From Arthrobacter sp. NicSoilB4 (GTDB lineage Bacteria; Actinomycetota; Actinomycetes; Actinomycetales; Micrococcaceae), in the NCBI RefSeq assembly GCF_019977335.1, contig NZ_AP024653.1, positions 1,736,001-1,800,000 of the forward strand: 64,000 nucleotides of DNA. The letters are read 5' to 3'. Positions 7,225 through 55,399 of this stretch are shown one piece after another. A program made the position numbers and the translations under genes. Under the pieces are notes generated by a model. It was not told the DNA's origin. It ran no database searches and saw nothing but the letters and a program-made list of their open reading frames with translations. The stretch's first letter is position 1. Each line of letters opens with the position of its first letter.

Positions 7225-7505
7225 GGACTTCGGGGGGAGAGGTTCTGAGGGGCATTTCCCGGTCATGCGGCTCTCGACGCTACCGACCATGAAGGGGATG
7301 AACGGATATGGAATCGTTATGTGGCGCCTAGCGACCGACAGTCCTGCGAGGTCAGCCCAAGAGCCCGCAATGAGCGAGGGCATGACCAGGTTGCTCCCGA
7401 AGGTGGAGTTGAATGGCTCGTTCAACTTCATCGAGACAGAGAAACGCCGCACCCGTTCAATGCGGGTGCGGCTGTTTGGGAGGTCTTTGGTGGGGACAAT
7501 CGGGG
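7225..7505. repeat. Dispersed repeat, module gamma (copy 1)
   Basis: About 280 bp that align by eye with 53795-54066: both run through GGTCATGCGGCTCTCGACGC, a stretch around GAGCGAGGGCATGACCAGG, and a hairpin near the end. Here the hairpin is GCCGCACCC (7446-7454) paired with GGGTGCGGC (7464-7472). The module stops at the palindrome at 7506. Open frames in it show no conserved product between the two copies and look spurious. Confidence 0.8.
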
Positions 7506-7522
7506 TGTGGACAGTGTCCACA
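7506..7522. repeat. Palindrome bordering repeat core 1
   Basis: TGTGGACA-G-TGTCCACA, perfect 8-bp arms around one base. It marks the junction of module gamma and the tRNA-like core. The same sequence recurs at 51872 and 54067, and a variant with GCAC in place of GGAC at 11966, 12135 and 44708. Confidence 0.85.
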
Positions 7523-7660
7523 GTTTGGGTCGCGGACTGGGTCGTACGGGTGCCGGACTGGGCCGGGTTGCGGAGGTTTTCGGGGGAGTGGCGGAAGTTC
7601 AGGGGTGGAACCCGGTTCGAGTCCCACCTCGGGCACGTGTTTTCCCTGTTCAGGGGCTTG
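7523..7660 (+). repeat. tRNA-Leu-like repeat core (copy 1)
   Basis: The core contains GAGTGGCGGAA at 7586, like the acceptor/D-arm start of a tRNA-Leu, and GGTTCGAGTCCCACC TCGGGCA ending at 7634, like its T loop, 3' T stem and acceptor strand. The two parts are separated by only about 20 bases, so the anticodon and variable arms are missing and the 5' T-stem strand no longer pairs. A small CCCTG/CAGGG hairpin follows. It cannot fold as a working tRNA. Other copies are at 11989, 44731 and 51700. Confidence 0.75.
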
Positions 7661-8112
7661 CCGGCTTCTGAGTGTGAACAAATCTTTTCCCTGATGGGCC
7701 CCTCGGGGGCCTATTTTTGTTGGTGGTCGGGGGCTGGTTGACTCCTTCTCGTGGTTTCAGGCAGCGGTGGCGCTGCATACTCGTTCATTGCCGGGTACGC
7801 CTGGAGCCGCATGACTGGACGCTGTCCGGGGGAGCGTCGACGCCTTGGCTGGGACGTCGTGACTGTTCATGGCGACGTTGCTAGGTACGTGAATGACTTG
7901 GTGGGGTTTGTTGGCGGTCGGGCGCTAGCGCGTTTCTTGAGCCCCGGGGTCTGTCCGGTCGGCACGGGCGAGTACCTGACCGGTGAGCGTCATCTCCGAC
8001 GGCACTCCCAGAGCAACCAGTGCACAGTTCCTTGCGGTGAGGTCTTGGTCGATCGGGGGATGCGCGGGCATATCCGAGGAGGGCCTGGTCATTGTTTTGC
8101 ACGTCCCGTTTA
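7661..8112. repeat. Dispersed repeat, module alpha (copy 1)
   Basis: About 450 bp homologous to 44873-45318. Shared parts include a GGGCCCC stem-loop with TATTTTT at 7696-7718, CTCCTTCTCGTGGTT, CATGACTGGACGCT, GGCGACGTTGC and a final block containing TCCAAGAGCAACCAG-like sequence. On the minus strand both copies keep a short frame reading LVALGV-SE-T before a stop, near 7930-8080 here, which may be the relic of a gene tail. No complete gene is visible. Confidence 0.75.
7696..7718 (+). terminator. Intrinsic terminator inside module alpha
   Basis: GGGCCCC-TC-GGGGGCC followed by TATTTTT is a classic intrinsic terminator. The same structure occurs in the second alpha copy at 44902-44923. Confidence 0.75.
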
Positions 8113-11965: not shown

Positions 11966-11988
11966 GGGTGTGCACATTGTGCACACCC
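11966..11988. repeat. Left palindrome of repeat core 2
   Basis: A perfect inverted repeat with 11-bp arms (GGGTGTGCACA and its complement) around one T. It borders the tRNA-like core on the left. The same 19-bp inner sequence borders the core on the right at 12135. Confidence 0.9.
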
Positions 11989-12134
11989 TGGGCTTCGGAT
12001 CGGGCCGTACCGGTGCCGGACTGGGCCGGATTGCGGAGGTTTTCGGGGGAGCGGCGGAAATTCAAGGGCTGGAACCCGGTTCGAGTCCCACCTCGGGCAC
12101 GTGTTTTCCCTGTTCAGGGGCTTTTTGATGTTTT
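11989..12134 (+). repeat. tRNA-Leu-like repeat core (copy 2)
   Basis: This shares about 140 bp with copies at 7523, 44731 and 51700: GGGCTTCGGATCGGG, GTGCCGGACTGGGCCGG, GGCGGAAATTCAAGGGCTGG, then the tRNA-like 3' end (T loop, 3' T stem, acceptor strand) ending with TCGGGCAC at 12101. The CCCTG/CAGGG hairpin and CTTTTT follow. It is the only copy with an intact, identical palindrome on both sides. Confidence 0.8.
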
Positions 12135-12153
12135 GTGTGCACATTGTGCACAC
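12135..12153. repeat. Right palindrome of repeat core 2
   Basis: GTGTGCACATTGTGCACAC: 9-bp arms around one T, identical to the inner 19 bp of the palindrome at 11966. Confidence 0.9.
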
Positions 12154-12348
12154 TCTCGCCTCTGATCTGATGTTCCGGGTGTGTGGGGTCCCGGATAGAC
12201 CTATTCGGTTGTGGGGGAGTGGCTCACTACGGCGGACCGCGTACCGCCCTGTGGGGTCTCTGCTGGGAGTCCATCGTTGTTCGTCCTTCCGTTGGGTTTT
12301 CGCGTTCACCACGTCATGGTGGCTAGGGCCGCTTGCAACATGACTTGC
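12154..12348. repeat. Dispersed repeat, module beta (copy 1)
   Basis: About 195 bp nearly identical to 51891-52084 and clearly related to 54082-54252. Shared sequence includes CCTCTGATCTGATGTTCCGG, GTGTGTGGGGTCCCGG, TAGACC-ATTCGGTTGTGGGG and CGTTGGGTTTTCGCGTTCACC. Short frames across it are not conserved as proteins. The module always begins at the palindrome. Confidence 0.8.
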
Positions 12349-12464
12349 TGAATATTCTTTCGATCGACCGAGGGTTGCGGCCCGGTCCGGAATCTCCGCT
12401 CTGATACCTGTTCATGCAGGAAGGCGGGCGTAACGGCATGACCTGGCAACCGATCCGGAGCTGA

Positions 12465-13014
12465 TCATGAGCTCGCTGAGCCTGGCGAGTGGGCAGCCGG
12501 GCTGGGTTCGAGGGCGATTTCCAGGAACTGGTGGGCTTTGCTGCCACGGTCTTCCCATTGCCGGCGTTGGGCATCAGGTCGGCCGCTTGCGGTCAGAATT
12601 TCGCCGACGGCGTCCAGAGTATCGAACAAGTCGATGAGGCCGGCGTCCTGGACGATGCTCAGGTGCGTGCGCCTTCCCGATAGGGCCTCAGGCCAGGCGG
12701 GCGCGTCGAGTCGAGACCGTCCAGTCCATCGGGAAGTCGGCCGGCTCATGGTCCAGGCTCGTGATGCCCCGGTACTGGCAGCTGTAGTCGAGGGTTATGT
12801 ATTCAGAGTCGAGGGCGGCCATGGTGTCCTTCGGTACCGGGGCAGGTTCGTCCCGCGCAAATTGATCGGTAGGTTGCCACTTCTGCGATTCGGAGCCAGT
12901 TCCAAAACACCGGGCCGAAAGCCTGCTCGGCAGGACGCGGACAGGCTCATACACGGTACCTCCTGACGCCTGTTTGCCCAGCGAGCATACGGGAGGCACA
13001 CTGCCGGGTCCCAA
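12465..13014 (-). pseudogene. Possible degraded gene of unknown function
   Basis: Two overlapping minus-strand frames read as one protein interrupted near 12700. The first contains SEYITLDYSCQYRG and PADFPMDWTVSTR; the second contains LSIVQDAGLIDLFDTLDAVG and ends at 12465. Joined, they give a plausible soluble protein of about 150-170 residues. A good AGGAGG site near 12963 serves a third frame (ATG at 12999), so the N-terminus is also broken or misread. I recognise no family. Weak support; it may be a decayed gene next to the repeat at 12154-12348. Confidence 0.3.
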
Positions 13015-28539: not shown

Positions 28540-29475
28540 ATGATGGCCGATTCTGGAATTAGCGGGACACTATCCTTGAATGCTCGGGGCGTCTATCTGC
28601 TCGACGATCACGAGGTCGTCCGGCGGGGCCTACGGCACCTCCTGGAGTCCGACGGCCAGAGCATCGCCGGAGAATCAGGGTCCGCGCCGAAGGCGCTGCG
28701 CCATATTCGCGCCCTTCGCCCCGAGTTGGCCATTATTGACGATGATCTCACCGATGGTTCCGGGATCAGGGTGTGTCGGGATATTGCGGCGGCCGGCCTC
28801 GGCACTAGGTGCGTGATTCTGACCGGGGAGAGCAGCGAGTCCGTGCTGATCGACTCCATTCTGGCCGGCGCATGGGGATGCCTGTCCAAGCAGGACAACA
28901 ATGGCGAACAAATAAGACTCATTCGCCGCGGCCTGGCAGGGCACACAGCATACAGCGGCCGGTTCCGGGCCGCGCTTGCTGCCCCCTCGGCGCTGCGCGG
29001 GCCGAAGCGCCCGGAAGAGCTTCTTCTGACCCTCACAAGACAGGAAATGAATGCCGCCGTCGGGTTGGCGCGAGGGCTGACCAACCGCCAGATCAGCCAG
29101 GAGATGTTTGTGGCAGAAAGGACCGTTAAGCACATGACCTCGTCCGTGCTGAGGAAACTCGGCATGGCACGGAGAACAGAGGCCGCCGTGTTCATCACGA
29201 AGGCGCTGAATCCCACGGAAAACCGTTCGTACCGCTCAAGCCCATTCCCGGATCTGATCGCGGAGGTCACGGCAGCACTACTGGATTGCATCAGCGAGTC
29301 CGGGACCTTGCCGGTCATACACGAAGAGCGGGCTGGGGATGTCCGGCGGCTTGCTGAGGCACTTACAGCGATGGGGACCGGCAGAATAGAAACCGGGCTC
29401 CTGCCGGCACCTCGGGACGCGGCCAACGGCGGTTCTGGGTCCGGTTATCAGGAGCGTCACCGGGTTTCACGCTGA
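28540..29475 (+). CDS. NarL/LuxR-type response regulator, paralogue 1
   Basis: A 311-aa response regulator. The receiver domain (about residues 12-128) has the acidic pair in LLDDHEVVRRG, the phospho-acceptor Asp in IIDDDLTDGSG, Thr in ILTGES and Lys in CLSKQD. A LuxR-type helix-turn-helix follows (LTRQEMNAAVGLARGLTNRQ and VKHMTSSVLRKLGM, about 165-225). An extra tail of about 80 residues (YRSSPFPDLIAEVTAALLDC...) is shared with the paralogues at 32254 and 54527. No histidine kinase is adjacent. ATG 28540 is chosen because both paralogues start MMAD. Confidence 0.9.
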   Translation: MMADSGISGTLSLNARGVYLLDDHEVVRRGLRHLLESDGQSIAGESGSAPKALRHIRALRPELAIIDDDLTDGSGIRVCRDIAAAGLGTRCVILTGESSESVLIDSILAGAWGCLSKQDNNGEQIRLIRRGLAGHTAYSGRFRAALAAPSALRGPKRPEELLLTLTRQEMNAAVGLARGLTNRQISQEMFVAERTVKHMTSSVLRKLGMARRTEAAVFITKALNPTENRSYRSSPFPDLIAEVTAALLDCISESGTLPVIHEERAGDVRRLAEALTAMGTGRIETGLLPAPRDAANGGSGSGYQERHRVSR

Positions 29476-32253: not shown

Positions 32254-33118
32254 ATGATGGCGGACCCGGGAATCCCTCCGCAGCATCCAAAGCCCGGCCG
32301 GGGTGTGTATTTGCTGGACGACCACGAGGTCCTTAGGCGGGGCTTGCGCCAGGTGCTGGAGTCCGATGGTCGGGGAATCGGGGTCCGCCCGCGAAGCAGC
32401 TCGGCGGATCCCAGCCCTTCGCCCGAATCTGGCCATCCTTGACGATAATCTCACAGACGGAACCGGTGCCGAGGTGTGCCGGGCCATCGCCGCGGCTGGC
32501 TCAACTACACGGTGCGTCACCGGGGGAGCCGACGAAGCCTTGCTGCTCGACTCCATCTTGGTCGGCGCGTGGGGATGCCTGTCCAAGCAGGATGACTGCA
32601 GCGAACAGCTCCGGCTGATCCGCCGCGCACTGTCCGGTTACAGCGCTTACAGCGGGCGGTTCCAGTCGGCGCTTCTGGACCCGTTCCCCGGGCCGAAACG
32701 CCCGGATGAGAGACTCCTGACCCTCACGAGACAGGAAACGAATGTCGCCGTCCGTCTGGGGAAAGGGCTGACCAAACGCCAGATCAGCCAGGAGATGGGG
32801 CTGACAGAAAAGACGGTGAAGAACATGGTCTCGTCCGTGCTGACGAAACTCGGCATGGAGCGTAGAACACAGGCCGCGGTGTTCATCTGCGGAGCGCTGA
32901 ATCACTCGGACGATCCTGACTGCGGCGGCTACCGGTCCAGTCCGTTCCCGGATCTGGTCGCCGAAGTCACCTCAGCGCTGCTGAGCTGTACCAGCGAGGA
33001 CCGCTCAGTGCCGCCTACGGACGCCGAGCGGGCATCGTACGCCCTCCGGCTTGCCGCCGCCCTCGCCGCAACCGGGATCCGGCCGACGCGCCGGCGCCCG
33101 CTGCCGAGCCGGACTTAA
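32254..33118 (+). pseudogene. NarL/LuxR-type response regulator, paralogue 2, inactivated
   Basis: The start (MMADPG, LLDDHEVLRRGLRQVLESDG) is in one frame to about 32371; the rest, from GESGSAREAARRI to the end at 33118, is in another. Alignment with paralogue 3 shows that 11 bases are missing after GATGGTC at 32371. A second, in-frame loss removes two residues before the conserved Thr region (RCVTGG against RCVLMTG). The Asp region (ILDDNLTDGTG), helix-turn-helix (KRQISQEMGLTEKTVKNM) and C-terminal extension are retained. Two independent lesions make a sequencing artefact unlikely. Confidence 0.88.
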
Positions 33119-44707: not shown

Positions 44708-44730
44708 GGGTGTGCACAACGTGCACACCC
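44708..44730. repeat. Left palindrome of repeat core 3
   Basis: Arms GGGTGTGCAC and GTGCACACCC around AAC. This is the same family as the palindromes at 11966 and 12135, with a 3-base centre. Confidence 0.85.
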
Positions 44731-44872
44731 TGGGCTTAGGATCGGGTCGTACTGGTGCCGGACTGGGCCGGATCGCGGAGGTTTGCGGGGGAGTGGCGGA
44801 AATTCAAGGGCTGGAACCCGGTTCGAGTCCCACCTCGGGCACGTGTTTTCCCTGTTCAGGGGCTTGTGAGCC
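44731..44872 (+). repeat. tRNA-Leu-like repeat core (copy 3)
   Basis: Closest to copy 2: GGGAGTGGCGGAAATTCAAG, GGGCTGGAACCCGG and the tRNA-like 3' end closing with TCGGGCAC at 44842, then the CCCTG/CAGGG hairpin. The right side carries only half a palindrome (GTGTGCACA at 44878) where module alpha begins. Confidence 0.8.
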
Positions 44873-45318
44873 TCTGAGTGTGCACAGACTGTTTACTGAT
44901 GGGCCCCTCCGGGGCCTATTTTTGTTGGTGTGCCGTTGCTGTGGCCGGCGGCTCCTTCTCGTGGTTCGGGCAGCGGTGGCGCTGTTTACTCGTTCATGGC
45001 CCGGGGTGCCGCCAGCTGCATGACTGGACGCTGGCTGGGGGAGCGGTGCTGCCTTTGCTGGTTTGCATTTCTTGATGTCATGACTGTTCGTGGCGACGTT
45101 GCCAGGTAAGCGCATGACTTGATACGTCTTGTTGACGGTCAAGCGGCTAGCGCTTCCTTGAGCCGAGGTGTGCCGGGTCGGCACCGGCGAGTCCCTGGTC
45201 CGTGAACGTCTTCTCCGACGACACTCCAAGAGCAACCAGGGGCATTCTTCCGGGCGGTAAGGTCTTGGTCGTTCGAGGATACGAGGGCGTATCCGATGGG
45301 GGCCCGGTCATGGACTTG
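44873..45318. repeat. Dispersed repeat, module alpha (copy 2)
   Basis: Homologous to 7661-8112, including the GGCCCC/GGGGCC terminator with TATTTTT at 44902-44923 and the final block ending near CCCGGTCATGGA. The minus-strand frame reading RMPLVALGVSSEKTFTDQG before a stop near 45146 matches the relic frame of copy 1. Confidence 0.75.
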
Positions 45319-45484
45319 TATGTATTTGAGTTCGACGTCTCCAGCAGGTATCCGCTTTCTGGCCTCGATCAAGCAAGGAAATGGTCTCAAACCCTCCGCC
45401 CGTTCGGCCGGCACGGGCAAAAACATTATCCCGGCGACTAAAGGCTGGCGATGTGTCCAGCGTGGTCTCCACCGGGATCCCTGG

Positions 45485-45924
45485 ATTTCGGTTTTCCCCA
45501 CACTTCTTCGCCGGGCGTGTGTCTCAGTTTCACCGCTCCAGTGGAGACGAGTATTCATCGCTCTCTCCCAGTGCCAGTAGGGATGCGATTGCTTTTGATG
45601 TGGGGTCATTGTGGGAGTTCAGAAGCCAGGAAACCGTTGCCACGGAATCAGTAGGCGCAGCAGCAGTTCCACGTCGGGCGGCACTCATCATGGCTGCACT
45701 TACTTCCTTCCTATATCGCTCCCACAAAATTTCACTATGAAGCGGACAGGCAAGTTCCATCGGTCGAGCCGCTAGCCGGTCAAAGGTAATTAGTCCAAAC
45801 GGGTCGTGATGAGGCGATAACTTCACGCCTGTCTCACCGCAGCCAGCAACGGGACACTGATTCGAAGTATTCATTTCCATTGTTCCTCTCTTGCAGGTAC
45901 TTCGTGAATTGTCAGCGATGGAAC
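45485..45924. repeat. Inverted duplication, left arm (about 440 bp)
   Basis: The reverse complement of this stretch matches 47570-48010 with only scattered differences. It carries the 114-aa small-protein gene and about 30 bp of upstream sequence (CATCGCTGACAAT-CACGAAG, then TACCTGCAAGAGAGGAAC). The arms flank about 1.65 kb that contains a dead histidine kinase gene. Confidence 0.88.
45530..45874 (-). CDS. Cys/His-rich small protein, copy A
   Basis: A 114-aa protein with a possible zinc site: CPVAGCGETG near residue 6, HH at about 21 and CPLHSEI near 43. The rest is helical and ends LALGESDEYSSPLER. ATG 45874 is chosen because copy B starts at the same codon. Copy B at 47618 is almost identical, with a few substitutions (for example R/K in WERYRKEV). 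No family recognised. Conservation of both copies as open frames argues for a real gene. Confidence 0.7.
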   Translation of the reverse strand: MNTSNQCPVAGCGETGVKLSPHHDPFGLITFDRLAARPMELACPLHSEILWERYRKEVSAAMMSAARRGTAAAPTDSVATVSWLLNSHNDPTSKAIASLLALGESDEYSSPLER

Positions 45925-47569: not shown

Positions 47570-48010
47570 ACCATCGCTGACAATGCACGAAGTACCTGCA
47601 AGAGAGGAACTATAGAAATGAATACTTCGAATCAGTGTCCCGTTGCTGGCTGCGGTGAGACAGGCGTGAAGTTATCGCCTCATCACGACCCGTTTGGACT
47701 AATTACCTTTGACCGGCTAGCGGCTCGACCGATGGAACTTGCCTGTCCGCTTCATAGTGAAATTTTGTGGGAGCGATATAAGAAGGAAGTAAGTGCAGCC
47801 ATGATGAGTGCCTCCCGACGTGGAACAGCTGCTGCGCCTACTGATTCCGTGGCAAGGGTTTCCTGGCGTCTGAACTCCCACAATGACCCCACATCAAAAG
47901 CAATCGCGTCCCTACTGGCACTGGGAGAGAGCGATGAATACTCGTCTCCACTGGAGCGGTGAAACTGAGACACACGCCCGGCGGAGAAGTGTGGGGAAAA
48001 CCAAAATCCA
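47570..48010. repeat. Inverted duplication, right arm (about 440 bp)
   Basis: The counterpart of 45485-45924 in opposite orientation. Both arms break off together just before the 3' end of a short extra frame (THARRRSVGKT). The outer boundary here joins an unrelated gene fragment. Confidence 0.88.
47618..47962 (+). CDS. Cys/His-rich small protein, copy B
   Basis: A 114-aa near copy of the protein at 45530-45874, with the same Cys/His pattern. Its ribosome site (GAGAGGAAC, 9 bases before ATG) is conserved, but the extra ATGGAA codons of copy A are changed to TATAGAA, confirming that ATG 47618 is the true start. Function unknown. Confidence 0.7.
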   Translation: MNTSNQCPVAGCGETGVKLSPHHDPFGLITFDRLAARPMELACPLHSEILWERYKKEVSAAMMSASRRGTAAAPTDSVARVSWRLNSHNDPTSKAIASLLALGESDEYSSPLER

Positions 48011-48149
48011 AGAGTCCCGTTGCAAACGACGGCGCAGTTTTCAGGTTCCGCTGACGTGCAGGGGTTCGCCTCTTTTACGCGGCGACCCGTGCCTTGTCGG
48101 CATGATGGAGCACTCTTTTCTCGGAACGAGATGGATCTAAGACGCTGCC

Positions 48150-51699: not shown

Positions 51700-51871
51700 G
51701 CAGACCCTGGGCTTCGGATCGGATCGGGTCGTACTCGTGCCGGATTGGGCCGGATTGGGCCGGATTGCGGAGGATTTCAGGCGAGTGGCGGTATCTCAAT
51801 GCCTGGAACCCGGTTCGAGTCCCACCTCGGGCAAGTATTTTCCCTGTTCAGGGGCTTTTTGGTGTTTTTTC
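51700..51871 (+). repeat. tRNA-Leu-like repeat core (copy 4, diverged)
   Basis: The same core, with a local duplication (GGCCGGATT three times) and the tRNA-like 3' end closing with TCGGGCAAGT at 51834 instead of CACGT. The CCCTG/CAGGG hairpin and CTTTTT follow. The left palindrome is decayed; the right one at 51872 is perfect. Confidence 0.75.
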
Positions 51872-51890
51872 GTGTGGACAGTGTCCACAC
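51872..51890. repeat. Right palindrome of repeat core 4
   Basis: GTGTGGACAGTGTCCACAC: 9-bp arms around one G, the same as the palindromes at 7506 and 54067. Confidence 0.9.
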
Positions 51891-52084
51891 TCTTGCCTCT
51901 GATCTGATGTTCCGGGTGTGTGGGGTCCCGGGTAGACCTATTCGGTTGTGGGGGAGCGGCCGGCTACGGCGGCCCGCGTACCGCCTTGTGCGGCCTCTGC
52001 TGGGTGTTCATCCTTGTTCGTCCTTCCGTTGGGTTTTCGCGTTCACCAGTTCATGGTGGCTAGGGCCGCGTACAACATGACTTC
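51891..52084. repeat. Dispersed repeat, module beta (copy 2)
   Basis: Nearly identical to 12154-12348 over its full length, ending at CATGGTGGCTAGGGCCG-TACAACATGACT. Again it starts exactly at the palindrome. Confidence 0.85.
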
Positions 52085-53794: not shown

Positions 53795-54066
53795 AGCACG
53801 CGGGGAGGGGATTCTGAGGGGAACGCCTGGTCATGCGGCTCTCGACGCTGCCGGCCATGAAGGGATGAACGGAGGTGGAAGCGTTATGAGAAGCCTAGCG
53901 ACCGACAGCCCTGGTCTGCCCAAGAGCCCGCAATGAGCGAGGGCATGACCAGGTTGCTGCCGCACGTGGAGTCCTACGGCTTCTTCAACTTTGTCGAGAC
54001 AGAGAAATGCCGCACGCCGTCATTGCGGGGTGCGGCTGGGTGCCTTTAGCGGGGAGAATTGGGGGC
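53795..54066. repeat. Dispersed repeat, module gamma (copy 2)
   Basis: Homologous to 7225-7505: GGTCATGCGGCTCTCGACGC, CTAGCGACCGACAG, CAATGAGCGAGGGCATGACC and a conserved hairpin GCCGCAC (54009-54015) with GTGCGGC (54030-54036). It ends at the palindrome at 54067. Confidence 0.8.
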
Positions 54067-54081
54067 GTGGACAGTGTCCAC
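54067..54081. repeat. Lone palindrome joining modules gamma and beta
   Basis: GTGGACA-G-TGTCCAC. Left of it is module gamma, right of it module beta. No tRNA-like core is present, unlike at every other gamma or beta site in this window. Confidence 0.85.
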
Positions 54082-54252
54082 ACTCTCCAGCCTCTGATCT
54101 GATGTTCCGGGTGTGTGGGGTCCCGGATAGACCTTTTCGGTTGTATGGGGGAGTGGCCGAATAAGGCGGACCGCGCACCGCCCTGTGGGCTTCTGCTGGG
54201 AGTTCATCCTCGTTCGTCCTTCCCTTGGACCATCCCGTTCACCAGCCTCTGG
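54082..54252. repeat. Dispersed repeat, module beta (copy 3, diverged)
   Basis: Matches 12154-12348 through CCTCTGATCTGATGTTCCGG and TCCCGGATAGACC, then loosely through CGTTCGTCCTTCC to CGTTCACCAG; the last part differs. Confidence 0.75.
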
Positions 54253-54526: not shown

Positions 54527-55399
54527 ATGATGGCTGACCCGGAAGTCCGCCCACACGACAGCTACGCCGGCCGTGGCGTGTATTTGGTGGACGACCACGA
54601 GGTCATCAGGCGAGGTCTGCGCCAACTGATCGAGTCCGATGGTCTTTGCATCGCCGGGGAGTCAGGGGCCGCCCGCGAAGCAGTGCGGCGGATCCCTGCC
54701 CTTCGCCCGGAGCTGGTGATCCTGGACGATGATCTTCCGGACGGTTCCGGTGCCGACGTCTGCCGGGCCATCGCAGCGGCCGACCCGGGCATCCGGTGCG
54801 TGCTGATGACCGGGGACAGCGACGAAGCCGTGCTGATCGACTCCATCCTGGCCGGCGCGTGGGGGTGCCTGTCCAAGCAGGATGACAGCAGCGAACAACT
54901 CAGGCTCATCCGACGGGCCCTGGCCGGGCACACCGCGTACAGTGGCTGGTTCCATCCGGTGCTTCTGGCCCCGTGCCCCCTGCTAGGGCACGCACGGGCG
55001 GATGACCGTCTCCTGAGCCTCTCAAGGCAGGAAATGACTGCCGCCATTGGCATGGGAAGAGGACTGAGCAACCGCCAGATCAGCCAGGAAATGTTTTTGG
55101 CAGAAAAGACCGTGAAAAATATGGTCTCGTCCATCCTGATGAAACTCGGCATGACGCGCAGAACCGAGGTCGCAGTTCTCGTCACCACAACCCTGAATCA
55201 CCCCGAGCACCCCGACGATAATGGCTACCGGTCCAGCCGGTTCCCGAATCTGATCCCCGAGGTCACGGCCGCGCTGCTGAACTGCACCAGCGAGACTCGC
55301 ACCATGCCCACTGTCGAAGAACAAGCAGGGGACGCGGACCGGCTTGCCGACGCCCTTACCGCGACCCGGACCGGGCTGACAGTGACCCGGCCCCACTAA
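54527..55399 (+). CDS. NarL/LuxR-type response regulator, paralogue 3
   Basis: A 290-aa response regulator, the best-preserved match to the pseudogene at 32254. Receiver: VDDHEVIRRG, phospho-acceptor Asp in ILDDDLPDGSG, Thr in LMTGDSDEA, Lys in CLSKQDD. Helix-turn-helix: LSRQEMTAAIGMGRGLSNRQ and KTVKNMVSSILMKLGM. A C-terminal extension of about 70 residues (YRSSRFPNLIPEVTAALLNC) follows and is conserved in all three paralogues but absent from ordinary NarL-type proteins. No kinase gene is adjacent, so it is probably driven by a remote kinase. Confidence 0.92.
   Translation: MMADPEVRPHDSYAGRGVYLVDDHEVIRRGLRQLIESDGLCIAGESGAAREAVRRIPALRPELVILDDDLPDGSGADVCRAIAAADPGIRCVLMTGDSDEAVLIDSILAGAWGCLSKQDDSSEQLRLIRRALAGHTAYSGWFHPVLLAPCPLLGHARADDRLLSLSRQEMTAAIGMGRGLSNRQISQEMFLAEKTVKNMVSSILMKLGMTRRTEVAVLVTTTLNHPEHPDDNGYRSSRFPNLIPEVTAALLNCTSETRTMPTVEEQAGDADRLADALTATRTGLTVTRPH

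Follow-up and report, generated by a model that had tools for sequence, protein, structure and literature searches.

Tycheposons of Prochlorococcus target tRNA genes, carry cargo, use a tyrosine recombinase and occur as many units. Compared by description, the locus reported here differs from them in that its examined integrase-bearing unit has conjugation genes and is ICE-like. ICEs and CIMEs have been described as accreting in tandem at a tRNA gene, and ICESt1/ICESt3 and the CIMEs of Streptococcus thermophilus are examples of ICE/CIME arrays (PMC5704250); the island array at ssrA in Dehalococcoides includes 15 islands without an integration module (PMC3146451). Our locus resembles the ICE/CIME arrays in that its islands follow one another at the 3' end of the target gene, with an att site at each junction, and in its units without integrase or transfer genes beside an integrase-bearing ICE, but its units are far more numerous, its extent is far greater (att copies over up to about 440 kb in genome G129) and its arms carry palindromic octamer pairs (PMC5704250). 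With the Dehalococcoides arrays it shares many tandem islands behind one RNA gene whose 3' end is repeated, many of them lacking an integration module; those arrays use a serine recombinase and the ssrA tmRNA, whereas a tyrosine integrase and tRNA-Leu(CAA) are found here (PMC3146451). The literature that we searched contained no direct paper on a tRNA-Leu(CAA) hotspot in Arthrobacter or Pseudarthrobacter.

Results

The att core and the tRNA-Leu(CAA) gene

We analyzed a window of 64 kb (the whole stretch of DNA) from genome G000, that of a soil bacterium related to Arthrobacter, in which five junctions combine a palindrome with a core and with modules called gamma, delta and beta, one of the five being coreless. 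The core ends in GGTTCGAGTCCCACCTCGGGCAC and a terminator, matching the 3' end of tRNA-Leu(CAA) exactly. The real gene, 52 kb to the left of the window (G000 C1:1683718-1683800), has this terminator and a delta arm behind it. Copies of the core are found at 1683.8 (the gene itself), 1702.9, 1743.6, 1748.1, 1780.8, and 1787.8 kb, all on the tRNA strand and within 104 kb downstream, while the rest of the genome gave only short chance hits. Since the copies are one-stranded and clustered behind the real gene, each core is what remains of an att site where two integrated islands meet, and gamma, delta, and beta are the element arms that flank it. Neither Rfam nor ARAGORN detected an RNA gene in the window, so the core is not a functional tRNA. 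An earlier note on this DNA had taken the core to be an excisable cassette, a view that we abandon because the core is an att site built of tRNA-Leu sequence. We also discarded the reading of the core as a mobile 150-bp cassette or MITE, since it is tRNA-derived and confined to one locus.

In the four junctions that keep the core, the arms and cores all lie on the plus strand. Junction 1 consists of gamma (7231-7505), a left palindrome (7506-7522), an att core (7523-7659) whose left part is element-derived and precedes the tRNA 3' end and terminator, and delta (7661-7860), an alternative right arm with half a palindrome that is also the arm right behind the real tRNA-Leu in G000. Junction 2 has a left palindrome (11969-11985), a core (11986-12126), a right palindrome (12136-12152) identical to the left one over 19 bp, and beta (12153-12558). 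Junction 3, a palindrome, core, and delta at 44711-45061, adds to those listed in the earlier note. At junction 4 (51705-52083), the left palindrome is lost, and the core is followed by a palindrome (51873-51889) and beta. The arrangements that had been proposed from the letters alone, gamma, palindrome, and core at 7.2 to 7.7 kb and core, palindrome, and beta at 12.1 and 51.9 kb, were thus confirmed, the latter two extending over 11.97 to 12.5 kb (with a palindrome on both sides of the core) and 51.7 to 52.1 kb. To the right of junction 3, the window also contains a 461-nt inverted repeat (45461-45921 and 47571-48031, 96% complementary, 1.6 kb apart), copies of which, about 95% alike, occur in the arrays of G046 and G061.

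Gamma joins beta at a single palindrome near 54 kb

The remaining junction carries gamma (53799-54064, plus strand), one palindrome (54066-54082), and beta (54083-54246, plus strand) in direct succession with no att core between them, as had been claimed. Its gamma, the arm normally left of the att core, is 81 to 82% identical to 7231-7505 and contains a hairpin terminator (GCCGCAC...GTGCGGC). The palindrome comprises two inverted TGTGGACA-type octamers and reads GTGGACAGTGTCCAC, with C as its outermost left base where the other copies have T. Beta, the arm right of the att core, is truncated after about 164 nt, and homology to cargo of G147 begins at 54246; its closest betas are those of the window at 12153 and 51890 (87-88.5% identity). 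A search for a decayed att core to the right of 54.25 kb, extended up to 1820 kb of the chromosome, found none.

Two further features of this DNA were noted. One is a short reading frame in gamma (7295-7470 and 53862-54020), conserved and equipped with a ribosome-binding site, that overlaps the hairpin terminator; it begins MKSLATDSP in G031 and G014, and in the 53.9-kb copy it is broken. The other is a set of three response-regulator genes of the LuxR type (28540-29475, 32366-33118, and 54527-55399), related to one another, within the array; their relatives are found in arrays or accessory DNA of G046, G053, G147, and G159.

The array across the genus

The 23-bp tRNA 3' end was present in 144 of 150 genomes of the genus, many of them with multiple copies, and ARAGORN placed tRNA-Leu(CAA) at the head of the array in G000, G031, G046, G014, G098, G129, and others. 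Four features of ICE/CIME arrays were tested. The target gene is intact at one end of the array, and each junction holds a target-derived att repeat in a single orientation. An integrase-bearing unit with conjugation genes lies beside the target gene in G046, where two TGTGGACA octamers in direct orientation and a gene for a 376-aa tyrosine integrase come immediately after the tRNA. This first unit spans 62 kb up to the next att core and encodes the integrase, an NlpC/P60 protein, a TraG/VirD4-type coupling protein, a TrwC relaxase, and a type I restriction system. G129, G116, G143, and G098 also encode integrase domains, at about 635 bp from the tRNA on its downstream side. Finally, there are units that lack an integrase yet keep their att sites, as seen in the window and in G000 more widely: no integrase domain was detected in the scanned window genes or in the G000 array, and the cargo of the window units consists of metabolic and regulatory genes. 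The only two tyrosine recombinases of G000 lie outside the array and are Xer-like by score and number.

Among complete genomes, the largest spread of att copies was up to about 440 kb (2264-2701 kb in G129). As regards an integron cassette array, which would have an IntI integrase and attC sites that fold as single strands, the array integrase matches general integrase families, and the repeats bear the tRNA 3' end. Strains of Arthrobacter and Pseudarthrobacter are the carriers that the public collection names, and no similar DNA was found in phage and plasmid collections. Judged by this gene content, the array appears to be an ICE together with integrase-less CIME-like islands, an arrangement of a known kind.

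Some arrays hold additional DNA. In G129, the normally single DUF3090 gene is present in three copies (C1:2402244, 2700619, and 2788775), two of them immediately in front of an att core, as though chromosomal DNA at the right end of the array had been taken up by islands. A tandem trio of tyrosine recombinase genes, RIT-like, lies within the array of G031 (C1:1411128-1413486), and copies with equal scores occur elsewhere in that genome.

The palindrome is a pair of inverted octamers

The palindrome is made of two inverted copies of TGTGnACA, the same octamer that, in the intact element, occurs as direct repeats in the interval from the tRNA to the integrase gene. A loose version of the palindrome gave 13 strand-hits in the window compared with 0.93 expected, a number reached in 0 of 100 shuffles. 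The octamer occurs 15 times in the 64 kb, and 12 of these copies fall within 0.94 kb of junction DNA, a density of 12.8 per kb versus 0.05 per kb outside. Most left arms that we examined end in the palindrome or a variant of it; as for the right arms, beta carries the palindrome and delta one half of it. These positions suggest that the integrase may bind the octamer and the palindrome as arm-type sites. Next to the integrase gene, the octamer has a variable base that differs between integrases, giving TGTGGACA in G046, G129, and G014 versus TGTGTACA in G098, as if site and enzyme had changed together.

Palindromes on both sides of the core were found at 31 of 77 mapped junctions, and in these 31 the left and right copies are 167 to 177 bp apart. 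In three of the 31 filled junctions, among them 11969/12136 in the window and the one in G125, the two palindromes share at least 17 bp, the identity in these three amounting to 19 or 20 bases.

The coreless form is derived

We then counted filled and coreless forms throughout the genus. Of 42 sites with a palindrome followed by beta, 37 were filled and five were coreless, these counts being lower bounds given by the exact beta-start pattern and the arrays retrieved. Four of the five coreless sites are joined exactly at the palindrome: the window site, G130 C17, G014 C161, and G014 C26, with gamma as the left arm in the first three and another arm in the last. Gamma is also conserved to the left of a palindrome and core in G031, G014, G046, G125, G081, and G139. 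In neither gamma nor beta are the coreless copies each other's nearest relatives; they are scattered among filled ones, the gamma of the window site being 96% identical to that of a filled junction in G125 and the gamma of G014 C161 95.5% identical to that of a filled junction in G031. The core was therefore lost several times, independently. Because the four coreless sites differ in their flanks and in their nearest relatives, we rejected the idea that the gamma/beta junction stems from a simple large duplication.

In G031, G166, G183, and G070, the palindrome and beta lie directly behind the real tRNA-Leu, which identifies the tRNA 3' end, not gamma, as the natural neighbor of beta. From this and from the independent losses of the core, it follows that the empty form, gamma-palindrome-beta, is the derived state. 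The 54-kb site is a readable scar left by a known type of process, and no new kind of element.

Comparison with the filled junction of G125

One filled relative of the window site is in G125, where two identical 20-bp repeats, 172 bp apart, surround the core and the 3' part of gamma is shared with the 54-kb site. When we joined these repeats in silico, the alignment to the window site grew from 282 to 440 aligned bases. The beta at 54083, however, is 77% identical to the G125 beta, below the mean of 85.5% for all beta pairs, so the window site is not a simple allele of the G125 junction. A check for filled and empty forms at one strict locus across strains yielded no such pair; the G125 junction has a beta of a different lineage.

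The window genome is colinear with G125 from -4.0 to 7.66 kb (about 89% over 11.7 kb), and the colinearity stops exactly at an att core. In G125, this segment and the tRNA-Leu are on separate contigs. That the DNA from the tRNA-Leu to 7.66 kb of the window genome is split in G125 over two contigs (C4:1332795 and C5:867055) suggests a large rearrangement with an end in the array.

The 5' part of the G125 gamma resembles the 7.2-kb copy of the window, whereas the 3' part resembles the 53.8-kb copy. One breakpoint fits 52 of the 58 informative sites, a fit reached in 0 of 20,000 permutations, and this pattern points to homologous exchange between gamma copies; such exchange would mean that the repeats of the array do recombine.

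Discussion

The site at 54 kb is, in our judgment, probably a scarred junction in a tandem island array at tRNA-Leu(CAA) that lost its att core by recombination between two palindromes. From the anatomy of the junctions, a tyrosine integrase would join the att site of an element to the 3' end of the tRNA gene, the att site presumably being ordered as a left arm (gamma or another), a palindrome, the left part of the core, the tRNA 3' end with its terminator, a palindrome, and beta or delta. Repeated integrations would leave one att core at every junction between islands, which is the pattern observed. The palindromes of the left and right arms could then act as direct repeats, with up to 19 or 20 bases in common and, at one junction, a spacing of about 172 bp, and recombination between them would remove the core, as proposed for 54066-54082. 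Deletion between such repeats requires no special enzyme. The most likely route would be an ordinary homology-driven one, by replication slippage, single-strand annealing, or RecA, and it would turn neighboring islands into a single unit that no longer has an att site inside it. The earlier note's proposal that the site arose by recombination between border palindromes is therefore retained in part: the join is the one expected and filled counterparts exist in other genomes, but what was removed was no cassette. Counted against this reading are the lack of a filled/empty pair at one undisturbed locus, the divergence of the 54083 beta from that of G125, and the small fraction of palindrome pairs that share at least 17 bp. 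Because of the divergent beta, the loss may have extended beyond the core, or a different neighbor may have been present in the ancestor.

A variant of this explanation, not exclusive of it, is a larger deletion in which the palindrome recombined with that of a distant junction and one or more whole islands were lost. The betas most similar to the one at 54083 are those of its own genome (88.5 and 87.2%), the G125 beta being distant from it, and the mosaic gamma of G125 documents exchange between array repeats. Nothing, however, points to which islands would be missing, and loss of the core alone takes fewer assumptions; we regard the larger deletion as possible but clearly less likely.

It is improbable that the arm palindromes are a second built-in recombination site by which the array is edited, neighbors being fused into larger units that move together. 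Slightly more doubtful still is the idea that a dedicated recombinase acts site-specifically at the palindrome itself to excise or insert the core. The four joins exact at the palindrome and the palindromes flanking the core in 31 of 77 junctions would suit such an enzyme, but the tRNA-Leu sequence within the core is the hallmark of an att crossover there, the two Xer-like enzymes outside the array are the only tyrosine recombinases of G000, and the octamer recurs as direct repeats beside the integrase gene, as for arm sites. Least credible is the suggestion of the earlier note that the site predates insertion, in which case the core would later have entered an ancestral gamma-palindrome-beta and duplicated the palindrome: the structure by itself is formally compatible with it, but beta lies right behind the real tRNA in four genomes, core and delta follow gamma in G046 and G000, the coreless copies are nested among filled ones, and the left and right palindromes usually differ, which argues against a target duplication.

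Loss of the att core through arm repeats, the reading that we prefer, shows a route by which the junctions of island arrays get erased. Such loss would merge two islands and hide their old border from programs that find att repeats. The genus-wide array at tRNA-Leu(CAA) constitutes a large natural series that allows comparison of junctions in the filled, half-lost, and lost states.
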